Made by a program: the position numbers and the translations under genes. This document shows, in pieces, positions 541-55,724 of a DNA stretch of 64,000 nucleotides. Position 1 is the stretch's first letter. The number at the start of each line of letters is the position of its first letter. The notes below the pieces were generated by a model. That model searched no databases. It saw only the letters and a list, made by a program, of their open reading frames with translations, and had not been told where the DNA came from. Origin of the DNA: Liolophura sinensis (taxonomy: Eukaryota; Mollusca; Polyplacophora; Chitonida; Chitonidae); NCBI RefSeq assembly GCF_032854445.1, contig NC_088304.1, forward strand, positions 22,705,704 through 22,769,703, read 5' to 3'.

Positions 541-3086
541 AATTATCTGGGATGAAACTGTGTTAGAAACTGTGTTAGACGAGAATGACCCATACAACAC
601 CTCATTAAAACTACTTGGTCTCTACGAGACAGTCCACAAGTATAAGAATTGTAGCCAATGGCAGGATGAATAGCATACAATTTGTTATGGACCTGCAAGT
701 TCCATTCACCCTGCCGAAGGCGACGAATATATTTAATTTAACTTCATTTCAGTATACGGGATTTTAACACCAGATACATATTTATATATAGTAGCTTTCC
801 CTTCCGTGTCTACGATTGTGTTTCCATGGTTACATATCTGATTTGGTATCCAGCTGAATATAATATCTATACCGCTTTAAATCAGTTTTCTATGTATGGC
901 TATTATTTTAAGCATTAGTGGGTTTTTTAAATTTATTATTCTCATTTGCCAAAAGGCAGGCGAAAGGGTCACTGCATATCATTGTCTTCTGGGGATGCTC
1001 AGAGGAAACATGTTATAAGGCCAGGAGTATAGACCTTGCCTCCGCAGAAAAGATAGAAGATGAAGATGCAGACGAAGGGAAGTGACCCGCTGTTCTAAGA
1101 CAGCCGCAGAAGCAATCCTGTTCCCATCCTTTGATGTGTCAGTGTATATAAATTTATAATCCGTACAATTAACCTTAATTTCAGCAAAACCTTGCTGAAT
1201 TATAAGAGGGTTTGTATTTAATGTATCATATTTACGCAGATCAAATATTAATTTAGGTTGTGGACGCCAGGGAGGAGACTCCGGAAACGATACTGGAGCT
1301 GTATCCTCTAGCTTGATGCCAGCTTCCACAATATGGTCCCAAACACGAAGACCAAACGAGAGATATTGTTACGACACTTATTATATTTATCTACATAAAA
1401 AGAATTGAAAACACAGTCGTAGGCAGGGTTGCGGGTTGAGGAAAACACAGTCGTAGGCAGGGTTTGTTGGATGAGCTTTAAGCTTTATAGCGTATCACAG
1501 ACGCCTGTTATACAAGGAAGTCTCGTTAGCCTCGACGTATAAACTTTCTACTGGTCATGTTCTAAAAGCACCAAGGCTGAGCCTTACACCTTGGTGATGG
1601 ACCGGATCCAACATTTTAAGATATGATTTCCTTGTGGAACTGTGAATGATGGACCCATTAGTCCAATTTAGACCTCACCAGGGATCCATATAAATTCAAT
1701 AAAACGGTTCGATCAGCGCCCCAAACGGTGCTAGACACGACCTTTATTATATCGCGAGCCTGTACGTTTAGCTATAAGCATTTCAATATGAGAAATAAAC
1801 GATAAATTGCGATCGAATATACCCCTAAAAATTTATATTCTCCAACGATTTTAACTGGTTCCAAACAAAATTTAAAATCTGGATCTAAATGAAGTCTCCG
1901 TTTATTACAAAAATGCATACCGACGGTCTTAGACGTAGAAAATCTAAAACCGTTGGCAAGTGCCCATTTCTCGATTTGATTTATACAAAGCTGCAGTTAC
2001 CACATGATGTTCATATTTTTAGTGCGGTAGATCATAAGGAAATAATCAACACACAAAGAACATTCCGTACCTGATTAAAAGTTTTAGTCAGACTGTTTAT
2101 TTAGATTCTAAACAGGGTAGGTGAAAGTATACTGTCCTGAGGTGAGAGTCAAACAGAGTGAGTACCTTAAAATTACGATCAGATAAAAAGTCTGATCTAA
2201 ACAGAGGTAAGCAACGTTTTAAACCCATATTAGAAAGGCCTTTCATAATACCATATTTCCATGTGGTGTCGTAGGCCTTTTCACGGTCAAAAAATACTGA
2301 CACGATATGTTCGTTGTTAAGACACGAATGAATGAAGGTTTCAAATTGAACAAGGTGATCTAAATTAGATCGATCTTCACAAAAACCACATTGAATATTA
2401 AATAAAAACTTGTTGGTTTCAGGAAACCAAACAAATCTATCATTTATCATTCGTTCCATAGTCTTACAGACGCAGTTGGTAAGACTACTACTACAAATAG
2501 AAAATACTAGCATATTCAGGTGCCATAATTCATGCCAGAGCAACCAAATACTTTCTGTTCTTGTCATCCTGAAAAGATAATTAGTAGTTATCAAATTTAG
2601 TGAGCAGTTAAATAATAACGATGATAACAGAGCCTATTTAGTTTGGTGGCGCCCTAAAGGTGGCTAATATAGATAGATTACAAGTGTGGTAACAGAATCT
2701 CTTACTTCTTGTGACAAAAAATACTACCAAATTAAATATTTGAGCTTTGTGGATTTAAAAGAGTTAGCATTGATGGTTGTTGCACAGCTAAAATCGAAAG
2801 CCGTCTTAATATGTCATTACGAATCTGTCCATAATATGGACACCAAAGTAAAAAATGATCGATAGTTTCTAAAATATTGCAGTGGGATGCTTTCCAGGTC
2901 TATGGGGAGATAAAAATTCAAGGGAACGTGACCAGACTGCAATCTCATCTAAAAACTTGTTGTAACCTCCCCTTCACTGACACTCAAGCATTTTTTACTG
3001 TAGGAAACAAACTGTAGTAAAATCTACTTTTGGCACTATTTTCCCATTCCTGCTGCCACATTTCATAAAACTGTTTTCGATAAACA

Positions 3087-3626
3087 CTAAACATTTCCGA
3101 GACAGACATCTATACCACTTTTCGTACACGCTGCTTTCGCCAACCGATCCGCCCTCTCGTTCCCTTCAATATTACTGTGGCCTGGAATCAACTCAAGGCG
3201 CACCTGAATGTTCTGATAGAAAAGATATGTAAAACAGTATAATATCTCAAGTACAACATTGTTAGCATTTCTCCCAGCATGGTTGATCAGAGCAAATAAC
3301 GTACTTAGAAAGTCAGTAAATATTACACATTTAAAGGGACGAAATTCTTCTACAAATTTTAACGCCACAAAGACAGCAACCAATTCGGAGGTGAAGAGGG
3401 TAACATCAGATAGACAGTAAGACTTTTTATACTTGATTTCCGGGACACAGAAGGCCGCGGATGTTCTTCCAGATTCTGGACATTTCGACCCATCTGTGTA
3501 AATGTGGAGATAATCATACAAGTTTGATCGAATATGATCTTTAGCACACAATTCTTTATTTTTGATAGGGTCAGATGTCCTTACTTTCGAATGGACTTCT
3601 GTAGATATAAAAGGAAGCCTCAGCAT
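3087..3626 (-). CDS. LINE F RNase H domain (intact catalytic residues)
   Basis: This 179-residue open frame has the RNase H tetrad in order: Asp45 in IYTDGS, Glu81 in TSELVA, Asp105 in FTDFLS and Asp160 in PGHSNIEGNERADRLA, with His150 in place. It would degrade the RNA strand of LINE cDNA hybrids. It survives as an open fragment of a 5'-truncated element and is not an independent host gene as far as can be seen. Confidence 0.75.
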   Translation of the reverse strand: MLRLPFISTEVHSKVRTSDPIKNKELCAKDHIRSNLYDYLHIYTDGSKCPESGRTSAAFCVPEIKYKKSYCLSDVTLFTSELVAVFVALKFVEEFRPFKCVIFTDFLSTLFALINHAGRNANNVVLEILYCFTYLFYQNIQVRLELIPGHSNIEGNERADRLAKAACTKSGIDVCLGNV

Positions 3627-9655: not shown

Positions 9656-10255
9656 CATCATTTCCGCATTGTGGATAGGAAACGTGCCGTTACGCTCCAC
9701 GACCAGTCTTGGGACATATGGTATTTACTGCGTGCTTACGTCTTACTCCCTCCTCATACTTGTCTGGTGAATAATTCTCCTAAATTTAACGCTTGCAGAT
9801 CTGTGAAACAAGAGTACTTATACATGTGTCATTCAGTGGGTGTTTCGTTGGTGTTCACGCCCTAATATAGACTGTTTCAACCATACGACGGCGGCATTGC
9901 TCTAAGATTCAGTGGGCCTGTATTTCTCAAAAGTTTGTACCTATCAAACACATCCACAAAGAAAATGCATTGACCTGAAAATTTTGCTCTCTGATATCTG
10001 AAGAACAATGAACTAAGCACAATTTGAGTTCTTTCCTGTTCTGAGTTTGGTTTTTTGAAGGACTTGCAGTTTATAACGTAAGTCTTAAGTTGCTTAACAC
10101 ACACTGGCGGTGGACAACCCTCCACGTGGATACATCCAACCCTTAACACCAACCATGGTTGTGTAAGTTACATATGATTTTCTGTGGCGTTAAGCATCAA
10201 CTCGACAAACTGATAATCCGCGAAAATTTGTGAACATTACAATGAAATACCTCAC
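9656..10255. other. Downstream side of the cysteine-rich protein gene
   Basis: Any second exon should lie here on the minus strand. The best acceptor, near 10145, gives a 22-residue ending in phase with one cysteine, but this is not convincing. Confidence 0.3.
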
Positions 10256-10487
10256 CTTTAGAGAAACACCGGCAGTAAAGGAACCGACATTTAACTGACA
10301 GATCCGATGGGTCGACGTCTTCAAACGTTTCCCCGTCTGGCAGACATTTCTTTACGAATCTCACGCAGACGTCTACTTTGGACGAGCCACAGCCAGGACG
10401 TATGTATTTCTTGATGTATTTATACCAACTTGCATTTACGCCTACCGTTAGCAAGGCAAAAATCAGTAGAAGAGCAAAAACCTTCAT
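10256..10487 (-). CDS. Small secreted cysteine-rich protein, first exon (77 residues plus one base)
   Basis: Reading down from 10487, the protein starts with a classical signal peptide: Met-Lys, a leucine/phenylalanine core, and a likely cut after VNA at residue 19. The mature part begins with the basic aromatic stretch WYKYIKKYIR and has six cysteines at residues 33, 41, 48, 67, 71 and 73, the last two in YCRC. An acidic GETFEDVDPSD segment separates the cysteine clusters. The frame reaches an AAAG/GTGAGG donor at 10255, where coding probably stops and splices; reading through would add 19 residues. The start has A at -3, and a TATATAAA box lies about 90 bases upstream. I do not recognise the family. 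Antimicrobial, protease-inhibitor or other secreted roles are all possible and none is shown. Confidence 0.55.
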
Positions 10488-10575
10488 CCTTGACCGGTTC
10501 CTCTTTAAGCGGCAGCAGTGTCCTGAACGTCTGTACAGTCCCAGAAGACCTTTATCTGGAAGCTCATATCTGGAG

Positions 10576-10583
10576 TTTATATA
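10576..10583 (-). promoter_or_regulatory. TATA box of the secreted cysteine-rich protein gene
   Basis: On the minus strand the sequence is TATATAAA, about 90 bases before the ATG at 10487. This leaves room for a transcription start about 30 bases downstream and a leader of roughly 60 bases. Confidence 0.45.
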
Positions 10584-35887: not shown

Positions 35888-36290
35888 ACTGAAAACTGTT
35901 GACTGCTTCTGTTTACATAAATCCATCCTAATTTCTTACTTTATATAAATTCAGTTGGTTAACGGGCTAGCGCAGCGTAATGACCCAAGAGCCTCTCACC
36001 AATGCGGTCGCTGTGAGTTCAAGCCCAGCTCATGCTGGCTTCCTCTATGTGGGAAGGTCTGCCAGCAACCTGCGGATGGTCGTGGCTCTCCCCCAGGCAC
36101 TGCCCGGTTTCCACCCACCATAATGCTGGCCGCCGTCGTATAAGTGAAATATTCTTGAGTACGGGTTAAAACACCAATGAAATAAATAAATAAATACTTT
36201 ACATACTTTCTTGGTAGCCTGTGTTTTACGTTGTTTTGGGAATTCATATTACGATTATTGACCTGAAACGTCCATTATGGTTGAGAAAAA
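35888..36290 (-). repeat. Dispersed repeat Y, copy 5, split by SINE-1
   Basis: The halves 35888-35947 and 36197-36290 together match copy 3; the SINE lies between them. Confidence 0.6.
35948..36196 (+). mobile_element. SINE-1 inserted in a Y repeat
   Basis: The head starts inside the tRNA-like A box (TTCAGTTGGTTAACGG) and the copy ends in (AATA)n. The flanks ACTTTATATA and ACTTTACATA suggest an imperfect target duplication, and Y sequence resumes on both sides. Confidence 0.8.
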
Positions 36291-36409
36291 AAACTAACGT
36301 TTTTCACGACACACAATCCCGAATTAAGGTGTTTCGATATGTGCAATTTTCTTTCTTCTGCTGGGATACTAACATTGCCGTGTCAGTTATTCTTGGTTTG
36401 GTTGAACAT

Positions 36410-36472
36410 TCAAGGGAGATAACACCGATGCAATACTTGTCAAATAAAAAACATGCGAAGTTATCTCCCCCG
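36410..36472. repeat. Hairpin with GGGAGATAAC arms
   Basis: CAAGGGAGATAACA at about 36411 faces AAGTTATCTCCCCC at about 36457. The motif occurs singly at about 43058. This short inverted repeat is frequent in molluscan DNA. Confidence 0.5.
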
Positions 36473-36885
36473 ATTCACTCGGAAGAAGCGCTAAAAAAGG
36501 AGTTGGGTTTATTTTTCCGTGAAAATCGCTTTCTGTCGAAGATTGAGTGACCAGCGTCATTGATACGTTGATGTAAAAGGCTTTTATCGATTAGGTGAGC
36601 CATAAAATTATATTTTTAAACTGTTTGACTTATTTTGCGTTCAACGACTTTAAATAAAGAAATGTCGATATTTGAACACTGTATAGCACGCCACTGACTG
36701 TAACAACAACAACTTCATACAAATTCATAAAGGTATGTTACATTAGACATTTGTCAGACTGCGTTGCTCGGTAAGAGTTAACCCACTCTGCAGCTAGAGT
36801 GAATTAAATCCTTAGTTCCTAGTTTTGTGAGACAACTGTCTTGTAAGACAATAGCAAGGACTAGAACATAGAGAGCGTTTGATTT

Positions 36886-37047
36886 TGTTTATTTATTTAT
36901 TTGATGGGTGTTTTACGGTGTATATTTCACTTACACAACGGCAGCCAGCATTATGGTGGAAGAAAACCGGGCAGAGCCTGGGGGAAAACCCATATACAGC
37001 CGGAGAGGAAACCAGGATGAGCTGGACTTAAACTCACTGCGACCGCT
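36886..37047 (-). mobile_element. SINE-1, shortened copy upstream of SLX1
   Basis: The tail, hairpin and central domain are present, with a deletion between AAAACCCATA and CAGCCGGAGAGG. The head is missing. Confidence 0.7.
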
Positions 37048-37400
37048 CAAGTCCAGTTCATGTTGGCTTACCGGTACTTTAAGTTACAAATAAATATACA
37101 GGTTTGGAGATTGATAAAGAAAAAAGTGAAAAAATACATGCAGGCCTATGTAGATAATGTTGCATTAATTAAATTTAGAAGTCAGACATCTCATCAAAAA
37201 GCAAGTGTTGGCCTGTCGATTTTGACACTGACATAAGTTTCAAAAACTGCATGTAGTTTCAATCTTCATGAGTACTCTGGAGTTCAGTTGTGGTTGTGCA
37301 GATTAAAGACTTAAGGTTTGGTTTGAAAACCTCCTTTCACCCTGGAGAAGCTAGGGGGAGCCAGGAGAAGGAGCCAGGAGGAGCCACTTGCCTTGACACT

Positions 37401-40400
37401 ATGGTCCATGAAGTGGAGAATTTCTACGGAGTCTACCTGCTGTACAACGTCAACCCAAAGTTCAAAGGTCGCACCTATATCGGGTTTACGGTTGACCCTA
37501 ATCGACGTGTCAAGCAGCACAACACAGGCAAGCATGCAGGGGGCGCATGGAGAACGAGTGGGAAGGGACCGTGGTGAGTACATGTAGTGACATGACAGTG
37601 TCACATGGTATCAGGATACAATTAGTTAGATGGTTACTCAGTGATAGGATATGCAAATCTTTTCACTTAGTAACCATGTGAGGATTATTGACACCATATA
37701 TTTGTGTATCCTATCACTTAGTAACAATGTGAGGATTATTGACACCATATATTTGCGGATCCTATAAATTGGTAACCATGTGAGGATTATTGACACCATA
37801 TATTTGCGTATCCTATAAATTGGTAACCATGTGGGGATTATTGACACCATATATTTGCGGATCCTATAAATTGGTAACCATGTGAGGATTATTGACACCA
37901 TATATTTGCGTATCGTATCACTTAGTAACCATGTGAGGATTATTGACACCATATATTTGCGTATCCTATAAATTGGTAACCATGTGGGGATTATTGACAC
38001 CATATATTTGCGTATCCTATCACTTAGTAACCATGTGAGGATTATTGACACCATATATTTGCGTATCCTATAAATTGGTAACCATGTGGGGATTATTGAC
38101 ACCATATATTTGCGTATCCTATCACTTAGTAACCATGTGAGGATTATTGACACCATATATTTGCGTATCCTATAAATTGGTAACCATGTGGGGATTATTG
38201 ACACCATATATTTGCGTATCCTATCACTTAGTAACCATGTGAGGATTATTGACACCATATATATTATTCACAACCCAGTGGAGATAAACTAGCGAGCAGA
38301 CATATTTGATGTTGTCGGAAGGATTCGAGAATATATCTGTACCCCACGTAACTGTTGTTGTCCAATGAAAAGCAGAATGTTTTGTCTGATGCAGGATAGA
38401 TGTACATGCTGTCCTGTGTTCACAGGGGACAGGGATTATCTTTTTTTAACACAATATCTATCCTTCCACAAGTCCATTTATTCATGACCCAGGAGCCTCC
38501 CACAAATGCATTCGCTGTGAGTTCAAGTCCAGCTCATTCTGACATCCTCTACAGCTGTATGGCCGTGGGTTTCCCCCTGGCTCTGCCTGGTTTCTCCCCA
38601 CCATAATGCTGTCTACCTTCTTATAAGTGAAATATTCTTAAACACCAATCTAATAAATAAATAAATAAATATAGGGATGTAGCACTAATACCAATCAGTT
38701 TACGCTGATTCATTTTCTGCTTTCTGAACCAACCGAATGAAAGTAGGAAGTTATAATTCCTGAACTTTCACACATACTAAGCTGTTCACTATAAAGCCCA
38801 AGGGGATTAATTGTGTCAGTCACTTTTTTGGGCTCAAGACATGGCCCGCCTTCATCAGTTACTTTACCACGGTTTCATAGTTTACCATGGGCATAAAACT
38901 GACTACCATCGTATTTAAGTGAATACTTCCTGATTATTAGTTAAACAACAATCAATGTAAATAGATAAATGTTGTGTAGGACGAGTGTTAATGAGTGGCG
39001 TTGTCATCCAAGATATATATATCTTAGATGCCAAATTATGGGTTAATAAAAGTAGGAGTGAAGAGTGTAACATACTGTGTCAGCAGTGAGCAGGACAATC
39101 AGCCAATCCACAATAACCCAGGAGCCTCTCACCAATGCTTACTCACCAGTCATACATGGGAAGGTCTGCCAGCAACCTGGATATGGTCTGGGTCATGGGT
39201 TTCCCCAGGGCTCTACTTGGTTTCCTTCCCCCAACCATAATACTGGCTGCTGTCGTATTAGTGATGTATTGTTTGGTAGGATATAAGGTTCCATTCAGAT
39301 CAATAAATAAATAAAAAAAGTCAACTAATCATCAGGTTTATGTGTGTTTCTCTGTTAAACAGGGAGATGGTGATCATCACTCACGGTTTTCCCAATGAGA
39401 TCTCTGCCTTAAGAGTAAGTACTACCTGAGTAGACAAAGGTGTTGTTGAATGTTGTATACCAGTGTTGTTGCCTTTTAATGATTCATTTATATAACCCCA
39501 TTGTGATGTCAGAGACGGGTTATAGCACTCTTCTCGTAAGTGGGAGAGCCAGGTTCAAGAACCAGACTCATCATGCTCGTTAAAAATTTCAAAATCAGAA
39601 ATTTACTTGCTCCCCCGAATTGGCTGAGCGTATTAAGGGGATAGCTTCCCTCAGGCTGTGTTTGGTTTTTCCCCCACTATAATGCTGGTCACGTTTGTAA
39701 AAGTGAAATGTTCTTGAGTACAGCCTAAAACACCAATCAGATAATAAACAAACATAAAGGGATAAATGTAGGTCAATTTCTGGTTGACTCGGTGTCATTA
39801 TAACATGTTACAGGTAACTCTACATACTGGGGCAACTGGGTCTGGTGGATAGCATGCCAGCACTGCACATTCACATAACGCAGTCGCTGTGAGTTCAAGT
39901 CCAGCTCATGCTGGCTTCCTCTCTGGCCCATACGTGGGAAGAACTGCAGCAATCTGCGGATGGTCATGGGTTCCCCCCAGGCTCTGCCTGGTTTCCTCCC
40001 ACCATAATACAGCTGCCGTTGTATAAGTGACATATTGTTGAGCATGGCGTAAAACATCAATCATATAAATAATCTGGGTCTGGTGACTTCAACATGATCT
40101 TTCAGTAAGGCAGCACTATGAAGTTAACAGCTCTGGGAACAGCCTGCTACAAATTAACACAACTGGCGTATGACAAAAGTAGTGTCCAAAGCAGCATGAA
40201 ACCTCAAGCAGACAAAAAATATGGTTTTGTTTGTGTTGTTCATATTACTGGCATTCTGAAAGCTGTACACATTTTCCGAATCCAGTCACTGTAGTTTGGT
40301 AGTTTTCTGTCAGATTCCCTTATTTTTCGCCATGTGATCACTTTTACAACCTCTGTTTAAAGGGAAAGAACACTCTAACAAGGAGTATATGTACGACGAA

Positions 40401-43400
40401 AGACCATTAAGTCCACAAAAATAGTTGGATTTATTGTTTTGGAATTTTTTTAAGGGAGTGAAATATATATAAAACTTTGGATTCTGTGGTAGCCTTTTCT
40501 GACCATATTGGGACCAATGATGTCACATGAAGTTTTTGACACTTGACATGCATAAACTGCCAGATAGAGCTACATACACATGACTGCATTCGCCAAATGT
40601 ACATTAAAATGAACTATTTTAAGTAAAAAGTATGCATTTGACGTCCGGGGCCTCTGTGGCTTAGTTGGTTAGCGCGCTAGCGCAGAGTAATGACCCAGGA
40701 GTCTCTCACTAATGCTGTCGCTGTGAGTTCAAGTCCAGCTCATGCTGGCTTCCTCTCCGGCTGTATGTGGAAAGGTCTTCCAGCAACCTGCAGATGGTCG
40801 TGGGTTTCCCCCAAGCTGTGGCCTGTTCCCACCATAATGCTGGCCGCCGTCGAATAAGTGAAATATTCTTGAGTACGGCATAAAACACCAATCAAATAAA
40901 TAAATAAATAAATGGATTTGACGTCACTGGTACCTTCTGGGTCACTATACAGATCACTCTAGAATCTGATTTTTTAAAACCATTTTTTTCAGTTGCGAAA
41001 ATTCTAAAGAAATAAATTAAATTGTTTTCCTGGACAGTGTTTAATAGCCTTTCATTTGATATATATTTCATTTTAGTGTTTTCCTTCCCTGTAATCAGAG
41101 AAATCTTCATAGTATAAAACATTTACCATTTTTTTCGTCCTCAGTTCGAATGGGCCTGGCAGAACCCTGGCAAATCTCGCAGACTATCTCATCTGCCGGG
41201 CAAAACCCGTAAGGAAACCGCCTACCAGTACCGATTCCGGATATTTTCCGAAATGTTACGTACGGGTCCCTGGAACCGGCTGGCGCTGACGGTGCGCTGG
41301 CTCAAACAGGAGTACCAGTTGGATTTCTCACCAGAATGCCCTCCCCCTCTTCACATGGCCATTGCGTACGGCCCAGTCAAGGCCGTCAGGCTCAAAGACG
41401 CACCGTCAAAGCGAAAGAAAAAACAGCCAGATTCCGAAGAGAGCAACACTGAAATGAGCGCAGGTGAAGATGTGACTTCAGTTAGCGGAGAGATGTGCTG
41501 CATTTGCCAGGGAGGCTTCATGGTAAGTAGAACATCGCCTTGTCATAAAACAGTAAACTCATATACTTATTGCATGGATTAGAATAGTGCACATTTAGTG
41601 CTCAGTTAGTTAAACTGTTGTCATAATTTGATTAGAATGGCGATGATATCCGCTATTGAATTACTTGTGAACTTGTTTGCAGCAAATACCACTTTCATTA
41701 ATGTAAATTTTGTCATGGCTTCTCTTCATCTCATAAATAATATTCAACTGGCAGTGTTTTTATCATTGAACCCTAAATGGCGTTCATTGAAAATACATGT
41801 ATTTTTACTACATGAATTTGTGCAGTTGTCATGGATGGTTTTTGTTTCGGCAAGGCTCAGGACAGGTTTGTTGATTTGGGGGGCCACCCAGTTGACGTCG
41901 ATTTACACTGGGGAATAATTTAATGCGCGTGTGAAGACGCCGTAAATGTGACTTACTGTCGATCCAACACATTGGAAGCAGTTATTCCCCCTAACTCTCC
42001 CAACACTTTGGTCGATACAGAGCTAAATTCCGCAATTAGAACAAAGTCATGAATGTCACAGGGATCGCAGTGTAGGAAGTGATATCAGAAACTCACAGGA
42101 AAATCACTTTCTCAACCTCTGTTTCAAGTATGAACAACTTGATTCAAGCCAAACTGTACATAATTTTATAACTGCAGACTGAAAGCAAATAATTCTGTGC
42201 GAGGACACCATTGGTACGGCTAAGCCTGAACATGCCTACGTGTTTGTCTAGTTGTGGCAGTGATGCGAGATGAGCATCAAGAAGAAGTATGACATCCCAC
42301 AGGTACCAAAGAAGCGGCACCTGCACTGAATAAAGAGGTACCATGTTATAAATAAACTGGTCATGTTGTTTTTGTTGTTATGCAGTGCAAGGCAGAAATT
42401 ATGCGCTGCTACAGGCCAGAGTGTCACATGACTGCCCACATGGTCTGCTTGTCTCGGCTGTTCCTCACGGGAGCAGGAGCCGCCACAGAGGACGGCTGTT
42501 GTCCACTACAGGTGATACCTGTGGGTGGGATGTGCCCATCCTGTGCCCAGGAGCTGTTATGGGGAGATCTCATCAGATACAAACAGGGCTGTTTCCAAGC
42601 CATTCAAGAGGTAGGAATAATGCCGCTGTCAGGTGTATGGTTATCTCTCTGTGTAGCTGTATTGTCATCAGTGAATGTTAAACATTGACATAAAATGTAT
42701 CTTGGAGATTTTGTTTGTATAATATACGATACGGTATCTAAATGCTGTTTCAAACTTTATGGTATTATTTTATGATTTTATTTATTTATTTAATGAGTGT
42801 TTTACACTGTGCTCAAGAATGTTTCATTTATACAATGGCAGTCAGCGTTGTGGTGGGAGGAAATTGGGCATATCCTTAGTGTAAGCCCATGACGATCTAC
42901 TGGCAGACCTTCACACGTACACAGGAAGGTAGGGAGCCAGTCTTAGCTGGACTTAAACTCACAGCCACCACATTAGTGAGAGACTCTTAAATCATGGTGC
43001 TGTGCTACCACACGGGGGCCCCTCATGGAAAGGGGGAACAGATTTCAAACTCACAAGGGAGATAACCATATATAATGAAATGTCAATTACAAATTGTACC
43101 TGTCCAGCCACAGAGTAGGCTAATGTCACTGCACATTACCATTTGGTTGCCACATGAATGTGTACATGTATTGTTAGTTATTTATTTGATTGGTGTTTTA
43201 CGCTGTACTCAAGAATATTGCATTTATACGACGGCTGCCAACATTATGGTGGGAGGAATCCATGTAGAGCCCTGAAGGAAACCCACAACCATCCACAGGA
43301 TGCTGCCAGACCTTCCCACTTAGGGCTGGAGAGAAAGCCAGGATGAGCTGGACTTGAACTCACAGCGACCGCCTTGGTGAGAGGCTCCTGCGTCATTATG

Positions 43401-44048
43401 CTGCGCTAGCACGCCAACTAACTGAGCCACAGAGGCTCTTGTATTATTAGTGGAAAGTATCATACATGTACACATTACTGTGGTAACGTTTTAAGATCCA
43501 CTGAAAATATCTGACAAGGTGCATTCGAAATCCACATCTTGACTGGCCTATTGCTTATTGAGGGAGCCTCCGTGGCTCAGTCGGTTAGCGTGCTAGCGCA
43601 GCATAATGACCCAGTAGCCTCTCACCAATGCCGTCGCTGTGAGTTCAAGTCCAGCTCATGCTGGCTTCCTCTCCGGCCTTCCTCTGTGGATGGTCGTGGG
43701 TTTCCCCCGGGCTCTGCCCAGTTTCCACCCACCATAATGCTGGCCGCCGTCGTATCAGTGAAACATTCTTGAGTACGGCGTAAAACACCAATCAAATAAA
43801 TGAATAAATAAATTAAAACAATTGCTTATTGAGTACAGGAAGTACAGACAACCACTTAAATTTCTCCTCTCACATCTTCATTCAGTAGGCATTGGCCTCT
43901 ACATAACAGCATGTGTAACATGTCATCCATCACCTGCAAACTCTACTGGGCTATCATAGGATGTAAATACTGTTTAATTTACTTGTAGGAAACGTCTTCA
44001 GATGGTCACTGGACAAATGATTTGCAGGCAAGTCAGGACAACATATGA
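37401..44048 (+). CDS. SLX1: SLX1, structure-specific endonuclease catalytic subunit (5 exons)
   Basis: Exons 37401-37573, 39363-39414, 41145-41522, 42386-42610 and 43989-44048 join in phase to 295 codons, close to the length of animal SLX1; every intron is GT-AG. Residues 9-15 (YGVYLLY) and 25-30 (TYIGFT) are the GIY-YIG core, Arg35/Arg36 in RRVKQHN the catalytic arginine region, and Glu77 in FEWAW the metal-binding glutamate. Residues about 193-254 form the C-terminal RING/PHD-like zinc module (CCIC, MRCY, HMVC, CPSC), followed by LLWGDLI. The end, GHWTNDLQ, matches the conserved SLX1 tail. Residues 144-153 include a basic KRKKK run, a possible nuclear signal. In the known family, SLX1 binds SLX4 through the zinc module and cuts Holliday junctions and flaps in the nucleus. 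The start at 37401 has A at -3 and G at +4; an in-frame ATG at 37290 exists but its extension is not conserved-looking. Introns hold SINEs and a 51-bp minisatellite. Confidence 0.93.
37664..38264 (+). repeat. Minisatellite (51 bp unit) in SLX1 intron 1
   Basis: About 11.8 units, each with ACCATGTG-GGATTATTGACACC. Two variants, with TCACTTAG or TAAATTGG at the join, alternate over the last 350 bases, giving a 102-bp dimer. Confidence 0.95.
38484..38671 (+). mobile_element. SINE-1 copy in SLX1 intron 1
   Basis: It starts within the head at CATGACCCAGGAGCC; part of the central domain and half of the hairpin are lost. It ends in (AATA)n. Confidence 0.75.
39110..39317 (+). mobile_element. SINE-1 copy in SLX1 intron 1, diverged
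   Basis: It begins at ATAACCCAGGAGCCTCTC; the hairpin is scrambled (TTGGTAGGATATAAGG). It ends 45 bases before the exon 2 acceptor at 39362. Confidence 0.7.
39540..39765 (+). mobile_element. SINE-1-derived relic in SLX1 intron 2
   Basis: The 3' half is clear (39640-39755, with GTGAAATGTTCTTGAG). The 5' half only vaguely matches the tRNA-like head. Confidence 0.5.
39826..40072 (+). mobile_element. SINE-1 copy in SLX1 intron 2
   Basis: Recognisable from GCTGTGAGTTCAAGTCCAGC onward; the head is diverged, and the tail hairpin and a short AATA tract are present. Confidence 0.75.
40646..40915 (+). mobile_element. SINE-1, full length, in SLX1 intron 2
   Basis: It is flanked by ATTTGACGTC at 40636-40645 and 40916-40925. 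The head shows both tRNA promoter-like boxes (GGCTTAGTTGG and GAGTTCAAGTCC). Confidence 0.9.
42774..43023 (-). mobile_element. SINE-1 copy in SLX1 intron 4, diverged
   Basis: The whole element is recognisable in reverse from ATTTATTTATTTAATGAG to GGGGGCCCC, with many substitutions. Confidence 0.75.
43179..43438 (-). mobile_element. SINE-1 copy in SLX1 intron 4
   Basis: Near full length; the flanks TGTATTGTTAG and TGTATTATTAG suggest a target duplication with one change. Confidence 0.82.
43563..43820 (+). mobile_element. SINE-1 copy in SLX1 intron 4, young
   Basis: It is flanked by perfect 13-bp duplications ATTGCTTATTGAG at 43550-43562 and 43821-43833. It ends 155 bases before the final SLX1 acceptor. 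Part of the central domain is deleted. Confidence 0.9.
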
Positions 44049-44061
44049 CCAGTGGATTCGT

Positions 44062-45820
44062 GAAGATTTTTTCTGCCATCAACTAGTGGACAGGCAAGTT
44101 ACAGTCTGGTGAGCTAGTGTGTCATACAAAAGGATTTTGTTGACAATCTTACAGGGCAGTGAGCTACATGAATATTTTGTCTGCCATCAACCAGTGGACA
44201 AAAAAGTTACAGGCCAGTAAGCTAGTGTGTCATACATGAGGATTTTGTCTGCCATCAACCAGTGGACAAACATCTTACAGGCCGGTGACCTAGTGTGTCA
44301 TACATGAGGAATTTGTCGGCCATCAGCCAGTGGACAAACATCTTACAGGCCGGTGAGCTAGTGTGTCATACATGAGGAGTTCATCGGCCATCAACCAGTG
44401 GACAAACATCTTACAGGCCAGTGAGCTAGTGTGTCATACATGAGGATTTTGTCGGCCATCAACCAGTGGACAAACAAGTTACAGGCCGGTAAGCTAGTGT
44501 GTCATACATGAGGATTTTGTCGGCCATCAACCAGTGGACAAAAAAGTTACTGGCCAGTGACCTAGTTTGTCATGCATGAGGATTTTGTCGGACATCAACC
44601 AGTGGACAAACAAGTTACAGGCCAGTGAGCTAGTGTGTCATACATGAGGATTTTGTCTGCCATCAACCAGTGGACAAACATCTTACAGGCCAGTGAGCTA
44701 GTGTGTCATACATGAGGAGTTCATCGGCCATCAACCAGTGGACAAGCAATTTACAGGCCAGTGAGCTAGTGTGTCATACATGAGGATTTTGTCTGCCATC
44801 AACCAGTGGACAAACAAGTTACAAGCCGGTAAGCTAGTGTGACATACATGAGGATTTTGTCGGCCATCAACCAGTGGACAAACATCTTACAGGCCAGTGA
44901 GCTAGTGTGTCATACATGAGGATTTTGTCGGCCATCAACCAGTGGACAAACATCTTACAGGCCGGTGAGCTAGTGTGTCATACATGAGGAGTTCATCGGC
45001 CATCAACCAGTGGACAAACATCTTACAGGCCAGTGAGCTAGTGTGTCATACATGAGGATTTTGTCGGCCATCAACCAGTGGACAAACAAGTTACAGGCCG
45101 GTAAGCTAGTGTGTCATACATGAGGATTTTGTCGGCCATCAACCAGTGGACAAAAAAGTTACTGGCCAGTGACCTAGTTTGTCATACATGAGGATTTTGT
45201 CGGACATCAACCAGTGGACAAACAAGTTACAGGCCAGTGAGCTAGTGTGTCATACATGAGGATTTTGTCTGCCATCAACCAGTGGACAAACATCTTACAG
45301 GCCAGTGAGCTAGTGTGTCATACATGAGGAGTTCATCGGCCATTAACCAGTGGACAAGCAAGTTACAGGCCAGTGAGCTAGTGTGTCATACATGAGGATT
45401 TTGTCTGCCATCAACCAGTGGACAAACAAGTTACAAGCCGGTAAGCTAGTGTGACATACATGAGGATTTTGTCGGCCATCAACCAGTGGACAAACATCTT
45501 ACAGGCCAGTGAGCTAGTGTGTCATACATGAGGATTTTGTCGGCCATCAACCAGTGGACAAACATCTTACAGGCCAGTGAGCTAGTGAGTCATACATGAA
45601 GATTTTGTCTGCCATCAACCAGTGGACAAACATCTTATAGGCCAGTGAGCTAGTGTGTTATACATGAGGATTTTGTCTGCCATCAACCAGTGGACAAACA
45701 TCTTACAGGCCAGTGAGCTAGTGTGTTATACATGAGGATTTTGTCTGCCATCAACCAGTGGACAAACGTCTGGCAGGCCGGTGAGCTAGTGTGTTATACA
45801 TGAGGAGTTTGTCTGTCATG
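44062..45820 (+). repeat. Minisatellite (68 bp unit) directly after the SLX1 stop codon
   Basis: About 26 units begin 14 bases after the stop at 44048. Each contains CAGTGGACAAACATCTTACA and then a GGCCAGTGAGCTAGTG core. A nine-unit block of 612 bp is duplicated (about 44283-44894 and 44895-45506): the variant GACCTAGTTTGTCAT occurs near 44560 and again 612 bases on. No AATAAA was seen between 44049 and 45820, so the array may lie inside the SLX1 3' UTR. Confidence 0.95.
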
Positions 45821-45834
45821 CCAACACATACCAA

Positions 45835-45877
45835 CAACTCTCACCAATGCTGTCGCTGTGAGTTCAAGTCCAGGAAA
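45835..45877 (+). mobile_element. SINE-1 5' fragment split by SINE-2
   Basis: ACTCTCACCAATGCTGTCGC through TTCAAGTCCAGG, interrupted at 45878 by SINE-2. Confidence 0.6.
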
Positions 45878-46242
45878 ACGGCCCGGAAAGCACAGTTGGT
45901 AGAGCGTCCGCTTCGGGAGCGGTAGATCCAGGATCAATCCTTGATCGAGTCACACCTAAGACTTTAAAAGAGGAAGTTGTAACTTCCTCGCTTGGCGTTC
46001 AGCATGAAGGGGATAGTGCAACGACTGGTTTACCCATATCAGTATAATGGCTCGGGCGGGTCAGCTTACTTGCCTTCGGTAAGTCGTCTCAGTGAAGCAG
46101 CACTAAATAAAAGATCGGTGGAAATCCGTCCTGCAACAAGTAGGCACATTACACGCACATGCACTCTAAGGATTCCTTTGTCGTCATATGACTGAAAAAT
46201 TGTTGAGTATGACGTTAAACCCCAAGCACTCACTCACTCACT
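45878..46242 (+). mobile_element. SINE-2, full length, inserted in SINE-1
   Basis: It is flanked by perfect 13-bp duplications CAAGTCCAGGAAA at 45865-45877 and 46243-46255. The head, body and (ACTC)n tail are complete. Confidence 0.92.
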
Positions 46243-46435
46243 CAAGTCCAGGAAATTTGGCCCGTCACATGGGGAATGTGTAATGTGAAAACCCTAATGA
46301 TTCATTCTGGAAGATGCTCCCTCTGTTATTTTTACAATTTCTCATTTTTAGGTATTTATTTGGGAAATTTAAAATTTTAAGAATTGTACATTTACACACG
46401 CATTTATTATACATAATTTAATGTGATCTCATTTA

Positions 46436-46968
46436 TTCAGTGGAGATCATTGTTGGTATGTGTACATGCACTGTGTATATTCAGTGGAGATCATTATTGG
46501 TATGTGTACATGCACTGTGTGTATTCAGTGGAGATCATTTTTGGTATGTGTGCAAGCATTGTGTATATTCAGCGGAGATCATTGTTGATATGTGTACATG
46601 CACTGTATATTCAGTGGAGATCGTTGTTGGTATGTGTGCAAGCACTGTGGATATTCAGTGGAGATCGTTGTTGGTATGTGTGCAAGCATTGTGTATATTC
46701 AGCGGAGATCATTGTTGGTATGTGTACATGCACTGTGTGTATTCAGTGGAGATCATTTTTGGTATGTGTGCAAGCATTGTGTATATTCAGCGGAGATCAT
46801 TGTTGATATGTGTACATGCACTGTGTATATTCAGTGGAGATCGTTGTTGGTATGTGTGCAAGCACTGTGGATATTCAGTGGAGATCGTTGTTGGTATGTG
46901 TGCATGCACTGTGTATATTCAGTGGAAATCATTGTTGGTGTGTGTACATTCACTGTGTATAGTCAGTA
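46436..46968 (+). repeat. Minisatellite (44 bp unit)
   Basis: TTCAGTGGAGATCATTGTTG begins each unit, followed by TATGTGTACATGCACTG. About 12 units, one shorter. All three frames stay open, giving apparent proteins up to 198 residues; these are not genes. Confidence 0.95.
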
Positions 46969-47324
46969 AATTTCTTGTAAGATTCAGAACAGCCGGCCAA
47001 CATAATACTCGCGTAAGATACCAATCTAATAAATAAATCAAATAAAACAGTCGGATTGTAGCTGCAATAACAGAAAACTTGTCTTCTGCTTGATATTAAA
47101 ATTAGCTGCATCATTATGTATTGTGGCTATCATGACACCATAAGCGAATAAAGTATTGCATTTCTGCATATTTTGAGTTTTCTTTTTGAAATGCTCAAGG
47201 TTATTCTTCTTATAAACTACAATTTTGTGGACAGGCTACCAAGAAAACCACTGGATAACATCTGCTGAAACTGTACATGGAGCAGTTAACCTGCTAGTGT
47301 AGTCTGAAGTAGTGCACATCCAAA

Positions 47325-48185
47325 ATGTGTTTACCAGTATTTACGGTAAATGACGCTCATCGGTTACTGTCGTTGAGAGAAAGAGCAAGAAAGAAAAGGG
47401 TGATTAGACCCTGTCCGTTTCATCACCCTGCATGACAGCTATGGTCTCTAATCCCTGTCACTTGGGGTCGAGCCTGTGACAGCAAGGCGTGAAGGGCTCC
47501 CAAAGTGCCATGTGCATTACTAATTATACCTATGAATTAGTACCAAGGCAGACAATGACTATCACAACCCTGTAAATTCCAGACAGTGTCTCGATTTGTG
47601 GCCATGCCAAATAAGCTATGTACCAGTTCTATAATGCACTGTGCAGATCTCGAAACGGCTTACGTATAATTGTTTGGGTATTCATGTGGAAGTCACGTCC
47701 CACCATTATTTTGTGAAAGGTTGTCTATTCAGAGCCTTCATTATGCAAGAAATATTTGTACATATGTATTTCAGAAACAAATGGGTTTCACTGAGAAATG
47801 TGTAAAGAACTCGGTGGTCACGATCAGTCTCCAGGGAGTTTTCTCCGAATTCCCATTCATCAGAAAATGGCGAGCATAAAACAAGCAAGCGCATCTGTTG
47901 TGAAGTACACAAATTATGATTAAAACTGAAGAAAACATGAACTGTTGGTGGTAGGAGCATAGACTGATAGTGGAGTGTGTTTATTACATTTGGGAACTGT
48001 CCACATCGTCATCTGATCACCCTAGATGATGTCCCGCGGTGCCCAATCAGTAAGAGTCACAACCAACTGCATGAATCATGGAATACACTTTCCAAGTCTT
48101 AGGGACGAAATTTACCGTATATGAAAAACTTTGACAACCATCATGACACAGGACTATAGTTGGTGTGTAAATTACAATGTAAATT
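47325..48185 (+). repeat. Dispersed repeat Z, copy 1
   Basis: Blocks such as CCGTTTCATCACCCTGCATG, CTTCATTATGCAAGAAAT, GGTAGGAGCATAGACTGA and CCATGGAATACACTT-like sequence (CATGGAATACACTTTCC) recur in the same order at 60235-61980. No open frame is shared. Confidence 0.6.
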
Positions 48186-48442
48186 AAGGTTTAGCGGACC
48201 AGTTGGATCGAAGAATACATGTCTGAGGCAACCTTGTCCTGAGGATTATGAATTTCAAAGAATTATTCCCATTCCAGCTGTGGTTTTCATGTAACAGCCT
48301 CCACCTTTTGAACAGACAGCTATCCTTTTAGGGAAGTATTGTTGAGAACAAAGTAATGTAGCACCAGATACACGAATCTATTGAATCACCGTGCTAAAAT
48401 CTTGTACACGATTACAATCATCTCAAACCTCTTGATGAAAAA

Positions 48443-49206
48443 GGGCGTCAGCTCGGACCACTACCTCCTGACCTGTGAGGACGGCAGCTCAGAGCTCTAG
48501 TTGTTGACCAGTGAGGGCTTCAGCTCGGACCACCGGCTGTTGACCAATGAGGGCTTCAGCTCAGACCACCGGCTATTAACCATTGAGGGCTTCAGCTCAA
48601 ACCACCGGATGTTGACCAATGAGGGACTTAGCTCAAATCACTAGATGTTGACCAGTGAGGGCTTCAGCCCAGACTACCGGCTGTTAACCATTGAAGGCTT
48701 CAGCTCAGGCCTCTAGATGTTGACCAATGAGAGCATCAACTCAGACCACCGGCTGTTGTCCATTGAGGGCGTCAGCTCAGACCACTATTCATTGACCCGT
48801 GAGGTCTTTAGCTCGGATCACCGGCTGTTAACCAATGAGGGCTTTAACCCACACCATTAGAACAATGTTGGACAATAAGGGCTTCAGCTCAGACCACTAG
48901 CCGCTGACCAGTGAGGGCGTCACCTCAGAGAACTAGCTATTGACCACTAAGGACTTCAGCCCAGGACTTCAGCTGGTTAACCAATGAGAGTCTCAGCTCA
49001 GACCACCGGCTGTTGACCAGTGAGGGCTTCAGCTCGGACCAGTAGCTGTTAACCAGTGGGGGTGTCACCTCAGACCACTAGCTGTTAACCAATGAGGGCC
49101 TTAGCTCAGACCACCATCTGTTGACCATTAGGGCTTTAGCTCAGACCACCGGCTGCTGACCAGTGAAGGCCTCAGCTCGGACCTCTAGCTACTAATCAGT
49201 GAGGGC
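48443..49206 (+). repeat. Minisatellite (36 bp unit)
   Basis: GGGCTTCAGCTCAGACCACC followed by GGCTGTTGACCAATGA, about 21 units, moderately diverged. Confidence 0.95.
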
Positions 49207-49808
49207 AATTGTTTTTGCTAAATTTAAAATATAATAACTTAAAATATTTTCTTTTTTCTTCTCTCTAATCTTTCTGTCAATGTTTATGGATATGGCGACC
49301 TAATTTCCGCTCATAGGGATGGTTTAAAAAAAATAAAATCCGAGAATAAAAATACTAGCAGTTATTTTAAAATTTATTTTAGTGACACTTGATCAAAGGG
49401 ATTGCGTGGTAAGTTCTACAACTTGTATAACTTTACAATATTTTATTCAAAAAATTGGCTGAGGATACAATTCTAATATAATAATATAACAGAAAGAAAA
49501 CAATGACGGGGAAAGGTAACGAGAAAGTATGGACAGGTAGGGAAAGCATAGGTGGAAAAAGTGTGAAAACAGAAAAAAATAGGAACATAAAAAAGAAACA
49601 GATAGTGCGACGAAGTTAGTGCGAGCGAAATGGAAAACGAAATGTACCATTAGTTCAGATATATTCAGTAAAGTATCTTATAGATTATTGAAACGGTTGT
49701 TATTTGTATGCACAGCATTGAAGATCTGTACACTTCTTGGGGAAGATGTGTTGTCATATAGAGGTTCTGCAATAGTGTGGTTTTGAATTTGTTCTATAAT
49801 GATGACCC

Positions 49809-50175
49809 GAGTGAGTGAGTGTGTGCTTGGGGTTTAACGTCGTATTTAACAATTTTTCAGTCATATGACAACGAAGGAATCCTTAGAGTGCATGTAATGT
49901 GCCTCCTTGTTGCAGAACGGGTTCCCACCGCTCTTTTATCTAGTGCTGTTTCACTGAGACGACTTACCGAAGGCAAGTAAGCCGACCCGCCCGAGCCATT
50001 ATACTGATACAGGTCAACCAGCTGTTGCACTATCCCCTTCATGCTGAACGCCAAGCGAAGAGGTTGCAGTTTCCTCTTTTAAGGTTTTAGGTGTGACTCG
50101 TCCCAGTATTGACCCTGGATCCATCACTCCCGAAGATGACGCGCACTACGAACCGTTCTATCGGGGCGTAATGAT
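49809..50175 (-). mobile_element. SINE-2, full length, minus strand
   Basis: The tail (GAGTGAGTGTG) is at 49811. The head is altered near 50130-50165. The flanks TAATGATGACCCGAG and TAATGATGGCTCGAG are an imperfect target duplication. Confidence 0.82.
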
Positions 50176-55636: not shown

Positions 55637-55724
55637 CAAGCTGATATTAGAATTGGGCTCGCCATATTTCTGGTCTGTGGCATGTTGTGTGCTGCGAACG
55701 TGACGTCTTAGATGACTTAACGTC

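Follow-up and report, generated by a model that had tools for sequence, protein, structure and literature searches.

Immediately 3′ of the SLX1 gene of Liolophura sinensis lies a minisatellite with a 68-bp unit, at about 44061-45823 on the + strand of the window, which is the 64,000-nt stretch analysed here (NC_088304.1, 22,705,704-22,769,703, in a 609-Mb assembly). We consider it fairly probable that SLX1 carries here, in what is probably its 3′ UTR, a minisatellite of ordinary kind, which was seeded by a duplication at the gene's 3′ end and then multiplied, and whose units are not exons. A short duplication covering about 30 bp of the last coding exon and the adjoining UTR would have produced the 68-bp unit, and we infer that slippage or unequal exchange multiplied it, with later growth through duplication of a nine-unit block. 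Exon 5 would have kept its coding role throughout, the repeats being passengers in the mRNA tail.

The SLX1 gene had been recognised in an earlier, sequence-only reading of this DNA, and correctly so. Its five coding exons all lie on the forward strand within the window, at 37401-37573 (coding part of exon 1), 39363-39414, 41145-41522, 42386-42610 and 43989-44048 (coding part of exon 5, through the stop codon), with exons 2 and 3 placed by a GT-AG model. Joined, they give a complete protein of 295 aa with 0 internal stops, and the phase at the end of exon 4 (42610) is 0, as had been read. The protein contains a GIY-YIG nuclease domain (PF01541, 6.7e-15, whole protein) and SLX1_C, the C-terminal RING-like zinc-binding domain (PF21202, 4.2e-13, residues 193-264); its best PDB match is 7wme_A, an SLX1 chain (1.2e-34). 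In both domains and in its complete five-exon model it is like the SLX1 structure-specific endonuclease subunit, and we saw nothing unusual in it; what differs is the tail after residue 264, which falls outside the Pfam match. This match ends ahead of exon 5, which encodes only the final 19 residues and gives a single protein match in its own genome (E 7.9e-4). The motif described for the tail of S. pombe Slx1 is a SUMO-interacting one, different from that in exon 5 (PMC4726241). Genome-wide searches, in which copies can be missed, found this SLX1 only: the four protein matches are exons at the window locus, and SLX1_C has 1 match. Searches for relatives with the SLX1 protein yielded 0 matches among phage records, 4 pattern stretches in viral contigs (0 confirmed) and 16 stretches in bacterial and archaeal genomes (0 confirmed).

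TRF calls the array at 44165-45813, with a period of 68, 24.2 copies and 91% matches; the units, tens of bases long and highly similar, thus stand head to tail as in a minisatellite. The motif [CT]AGTGGACA has 25 occurrences in the array, and cuts made there produce 25 pieces. The last 24 are full units of 68 bp occupying 44192-45823, the final one being set to this length, and the first (44084-44191) is 108 bp long and resembles a pair of damaged units, of which the second lacks TGG. The earlier estimate of about 26 units is therefore fair. Unit sequence is recognisable from near 44061, 12 bases from the SLX1 stop codon, and 44061-44191 forms a degenerate left edge. Array units nine apart are 95.5% alike, compared with 90.0-92.1% for every other offset between 1 and 15. 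Hence, the array has a nine-unit, higher-order period, and a block of 612 bp was duplicated.

The reading frame that had been noticed in the unit, ending at a stop codon, is borne out by the consensus, which reads WTNILQASELVCHT-stop. The length from TGG to stop is 14 aa in 21 of the 25 pieces, 18 in unit 0, 11 in units 10 and 19, and 5 in unit 22. A CAG directly before TGG had been described as well; it is present in 24 pieces and replaced by TAG in one, and the presence of AG in 25/25 is partly a matter of construction because the cutting motif defines the pieces. Folded as RNA, one unit does no better than its shuffles (z -0.31; 78/200 fold at least as well), and Rfam gives 0 matches at the gathering threshold over 36000-50000.

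The unit is nearly confined to this locus. When a two-unit query was compared with the assembly, in which DNA match counts are lower bounds, 14 of 14 matches fell at the window locus. A 25-base core of the unit, with up to 3 mismatches allowed, matches 24 times in forward orientation and 0 times in reverse, and all but one of these sites (23) are at the window locus; the sole outside match, on another contig, has 3 mismatches, and its letters resemble the SINE-like repeat described below. The reversed core, used as a control, has 0 matches in the assembly, and exon 5 with its flanks, used as a genome query, matches nothing besides itself. As expected of a minisatellite, the unit is therefore not dispersed in the manner of satellite or transposon DNA. 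A local source is then natural, for which the end of exon 5 is the best candidate.

The array probably belongs to a long SLX1 3′ UTR. A scan of 44001-48500 for 12 poly(A) hexamers found none from the SLX1 stop codon to 46101, and the first signal-like hexamers after the stop are at 46102-46111 (ACTAAA at 46102, AATAAA at 46106); it is the lack of a hexamer ahead of 46102 that suggests this placement.

A resemblance between the unit and the last exon, over about 30 bases, had been the starting point of the earlier reading, and it holds: exon 5 matches the unit at 44007-44036 without gaps, on the same strand, in 22 of 30 positions (73% identity, or 27% divergence). Scored against shuffled sequence, the alignment is above chance. 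In the cruder test, the consensus score is reached by 20/5,000 dinucleotide shuffles of the exon, while a profile built from all 24 full units scores 24.5 bits against exon 5, a value reached by 2/2,500 shuffles. Among overlapping tiles of the window on both strands, 7 of 12,386 attain the consensus score, at two places. For the profile, the corresponding counts are 2/2,042 forward and 0/2,042 reverse 60-bp tiles of the window and, for 14 other 10-kb stretches of the genome (140 kb, both strands), 2/9,296 tiles. If the upstream match is required to join the array edge, its score of 12.4 bits is reached by 1/2,500 shuffles, 4/1,532 places in the window and 8/4,620 places in the genome. Furthermore, of 34 60-bp tiles flanking nine chosen arrays of the window, only the exon 5 tile stands out, with 2/1,520 background tiles equally good. 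Judged from these scores, the chance rate of the match would be roughly 1 in 250 (consensus shuffles) to 1 in 4,600 (genome tiles), before the many possible array-exon comparisons in 64 kb are considered.

Given that the match is rare by chance and that the unit occurs almost only at this locus, its descent from exon 5 is likely, if unproven. We infer that descent ran from exon to array: human SLX1 ends in HWTDLLET, and since exon 5 encodes part of a conserved enzyme with this ending in the human protein, it should be the older copy. A text search of the literature for HWTDLLET found no paper. The earlier description of the array as an amplified copy of the terminal exon is thus right in part. 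A relation to the end of the exon is probable, the match being rare, on the same strand and adjacent to an array whose unit is nearly exclusive to the locus; "copy" is too strong a word, because at most 30 of the 60 bases match, without the acceptor or the first 18 bases. Within the shared stretch, we also observed CAG|GCAAGT at 44028 of exon 5, which has the form of the GC-type splice donor consensus.

Several observations count against descent from the exon and fit instead with a chance likeness, the source of the array then being single-copy DNA, UTR or intergenic, immediately past the stop codon. The match is short, at 22/30. From the exon 5 TGG to the next TGG there are 77 bases rather than 68, a spacing that is off by 9, and the 24 bases between the exon match and the array (44037-44060) align poorly with the unit. 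The edge unit nearest to the exon is, by eye, only 18/30 like it, compared with 22/30 for the interior consensus, and the first unit can be placed entirely downstream of exon 5. Background tiles as good or better also exist, namely at 32.2 bits near 39140 and 25.4 near 55709 in the window, and at 29.4 and 25.6 bits elsewhere in the genome, and the finding was picked among many possible array-exon comparisons. Nevertheless, a likeness by chance has to contend with the rates given above, with the similar rarity of the extension anchored in the register of the array, and with a match that is on the same strand and directly adjacent to the array. We therefore regard it as rather unlikely, while giving it real weight.

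A repeat that is common in the genome and frequent in the SLX1 introns, and which we take to be SINE-like, was considered as another source for all or part of the unit. One copy of it lies at 43561-43815, and a 36-bp fragment (45838-45873, + strand; blastn 97% to that copy) adjoins the array just past its right end. Between the unit and the consensus of this repeat there is a 20-bp match, GTCTGCCA-CAACC-G-GGA, located in the non-exon half of the unit, which counts against descent from the exon as well; its score is reached by 113/5,000 shuffles for the unit consensus and by 37/5,000 for unit 1. Moreover, the best background tile of the window, near 39140, is in or beside a copy of the repeat. 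Such an origin is very unlikely in our estimation, since the match is shorter and statistically weaker than that with the exon, the left edge of the array matches the repeat no better (148/5,000 shuffles), and exon 5 itself is unlike it (2,640/5,000), so that the exon-like half of the unit would be left unexplained. The weak match serves rather as a warning that matches of such size occur. ARAGORN found 0 tRNA genes in the window.

To the right of the array, a different SINE-like element at 45876-46250 appears by eye to have been inserted into the repeat fragment, and AAGTCCAGGAAA, seen by eye on both of its sides, is a probable target-site duplication.

The sequence-only reading had also proposed that the units might be used as terminal exons. 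Here, exon 4 would be spliced from 42610 to CAG|TGG at any of a row of alternative terminal exons, giving SLX1 a tail of WTNILQASELVCHT. The phase 0 of exon 4 fits, as do the 14 aa to the stop codon in 21/25 pieces and, with the reservation on its construction, the AG before every TGG. To assess the acceptors, all forward AGs in the window were scored with an approximate 3′ splice matrix. Scores of the four real acceptors in SLX1 range from 5.39, for exon 5, up to 9.47, whereas the 25 CAG|TGG or TAG|TGG sites have a mean of 1.79 (range -0.63 to 2.83) and all fall below the real ones. Of the 3,731 AGs on the forward strand of the window, 25% reach 1.79, which puts CAG|TGG at about the 75th percentile, and on this approximate matrix no functional acceptor is apparent at each unit. 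Among the best 12 AGs within the array, some come close to the score of the exon 5 acceptor or exceed it (5.63 at 44155, 5.27 at 44327, and 4.93 at the TTACAG|GCC sites). An acceptor in the array is thus possible by score, yet these sites would not yield the proposed WTNILQAS product; splicing at TTACAG|GCC would drop WTNILQ.

The reading frame gives a similar picture. Among the 24 full units there are 12 distinct non-synonymous changes, 4 synonymous changes and 3 stops, out of 93, 27 and 7 possible, and of 8 further possible stop-losses 0 are seen. These numbers, though small, come close to the changes possible in the absence of selection, and the pattern of change in the frame looks neutral, with no sign of selection. 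An early stop is present in 3/25 units, and the first unit extends to 18 aa. None of the 12 poly(A) hexamers is found inside the array, so that the unit stops are not followed by a signal of their own, although the units could possibly share the one at 46102-46111. In addition, the product would lack the ETSSDGH of exon 5. With a weak CAG|TGG acceptor, neutral changes and early stops, the use of the units as terminal exons is unsupported, and we regard a row of alternative terminal exons as scarcely credible.

Hardly more plausible is a broader proposal, namely that the terminal exon was amplified to about 25 copies which are occasionally spliced in as alternative SLX1 tails, or which act as splice decoys tuning the level of full-length mRNA. 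The decoy version relies on acceptor-like TTACAG|GCC standing beside donor-like CCG|GTGAGC, CCG|GTAAGC or CTG|GTGAGC. These donor-like sites exceed 10 bits in 8 units, and among all GTs on the window's forward strand 0.9% attain a score of 9; we take the sites to have arisen by chance and to have been carried along by amplification. If the first version were true, a nuclease of DNA repair would draw several alternative tails from amplified exon copies.

Other tandem arrays and open frames are present in the window. At 37667-38262, within SLX1 intron 1 and 93 bases past exon 1, is a 51-bp minisatellite of 11.7 copies; as 51 is a multiple of three, its minus strand has an open frame of 209 aa. 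Its kinship with the 68-bp unit was considered and rejected: when nine chosen array units were compared with one another in both orientations (36 pairs), none came within 20/400 shuffles, and hence the likeness, which is visual only, is not significant. A 44-bp minisatellite of 12.2 copies occupies 46434-46967, and over most of its length all three forward frames are free of stops, for 126 to 204 aa. On the minus strand, a small ORF at 10197-10583 has a signal-peptide-like start and several cysteines, and by eye resembles a secreted cysteine-rich peptide; Pfam returned no family over its cut-off for it. Also on the minus strand, 2097-3626 holds retrotransposon-like ORFs, with RNase H at 1e-13 and reverse transcriptase at 3.7e-5, the latter under the curated cut-off.

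Minisatellites specific to one locus (VNTRs) are a known class in the 3′ UTRs of genes, and this array is ordinary in kind. It shares with them units of tens of bases standing head to tail at one locus, a block duplication and a degenerate edge; it differs in that the coding end of a gene probably makes up part of its seed. Tandem repeats grown from transposable elements, as outlined in PMC3389668 and PMC6947457, are alike in being seeded by an identifiable neighbouring sequence, while the seed here is more likely to be gene sequence than the SINE-like repeat. Judged by titles and abstracts, no precedent on point for an exon-seeded array was found in the literature, and we do not claim that none has been published.

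The array by itself leaves what is known of SLX1 unchanged. If its descent from exon 5 is true, it would be a concrete case of a gene's last exon seeding a minisatellite just beyond the stop codon, in which the coding copy, held by selection, would serve as a reference for the drift of the repeats.
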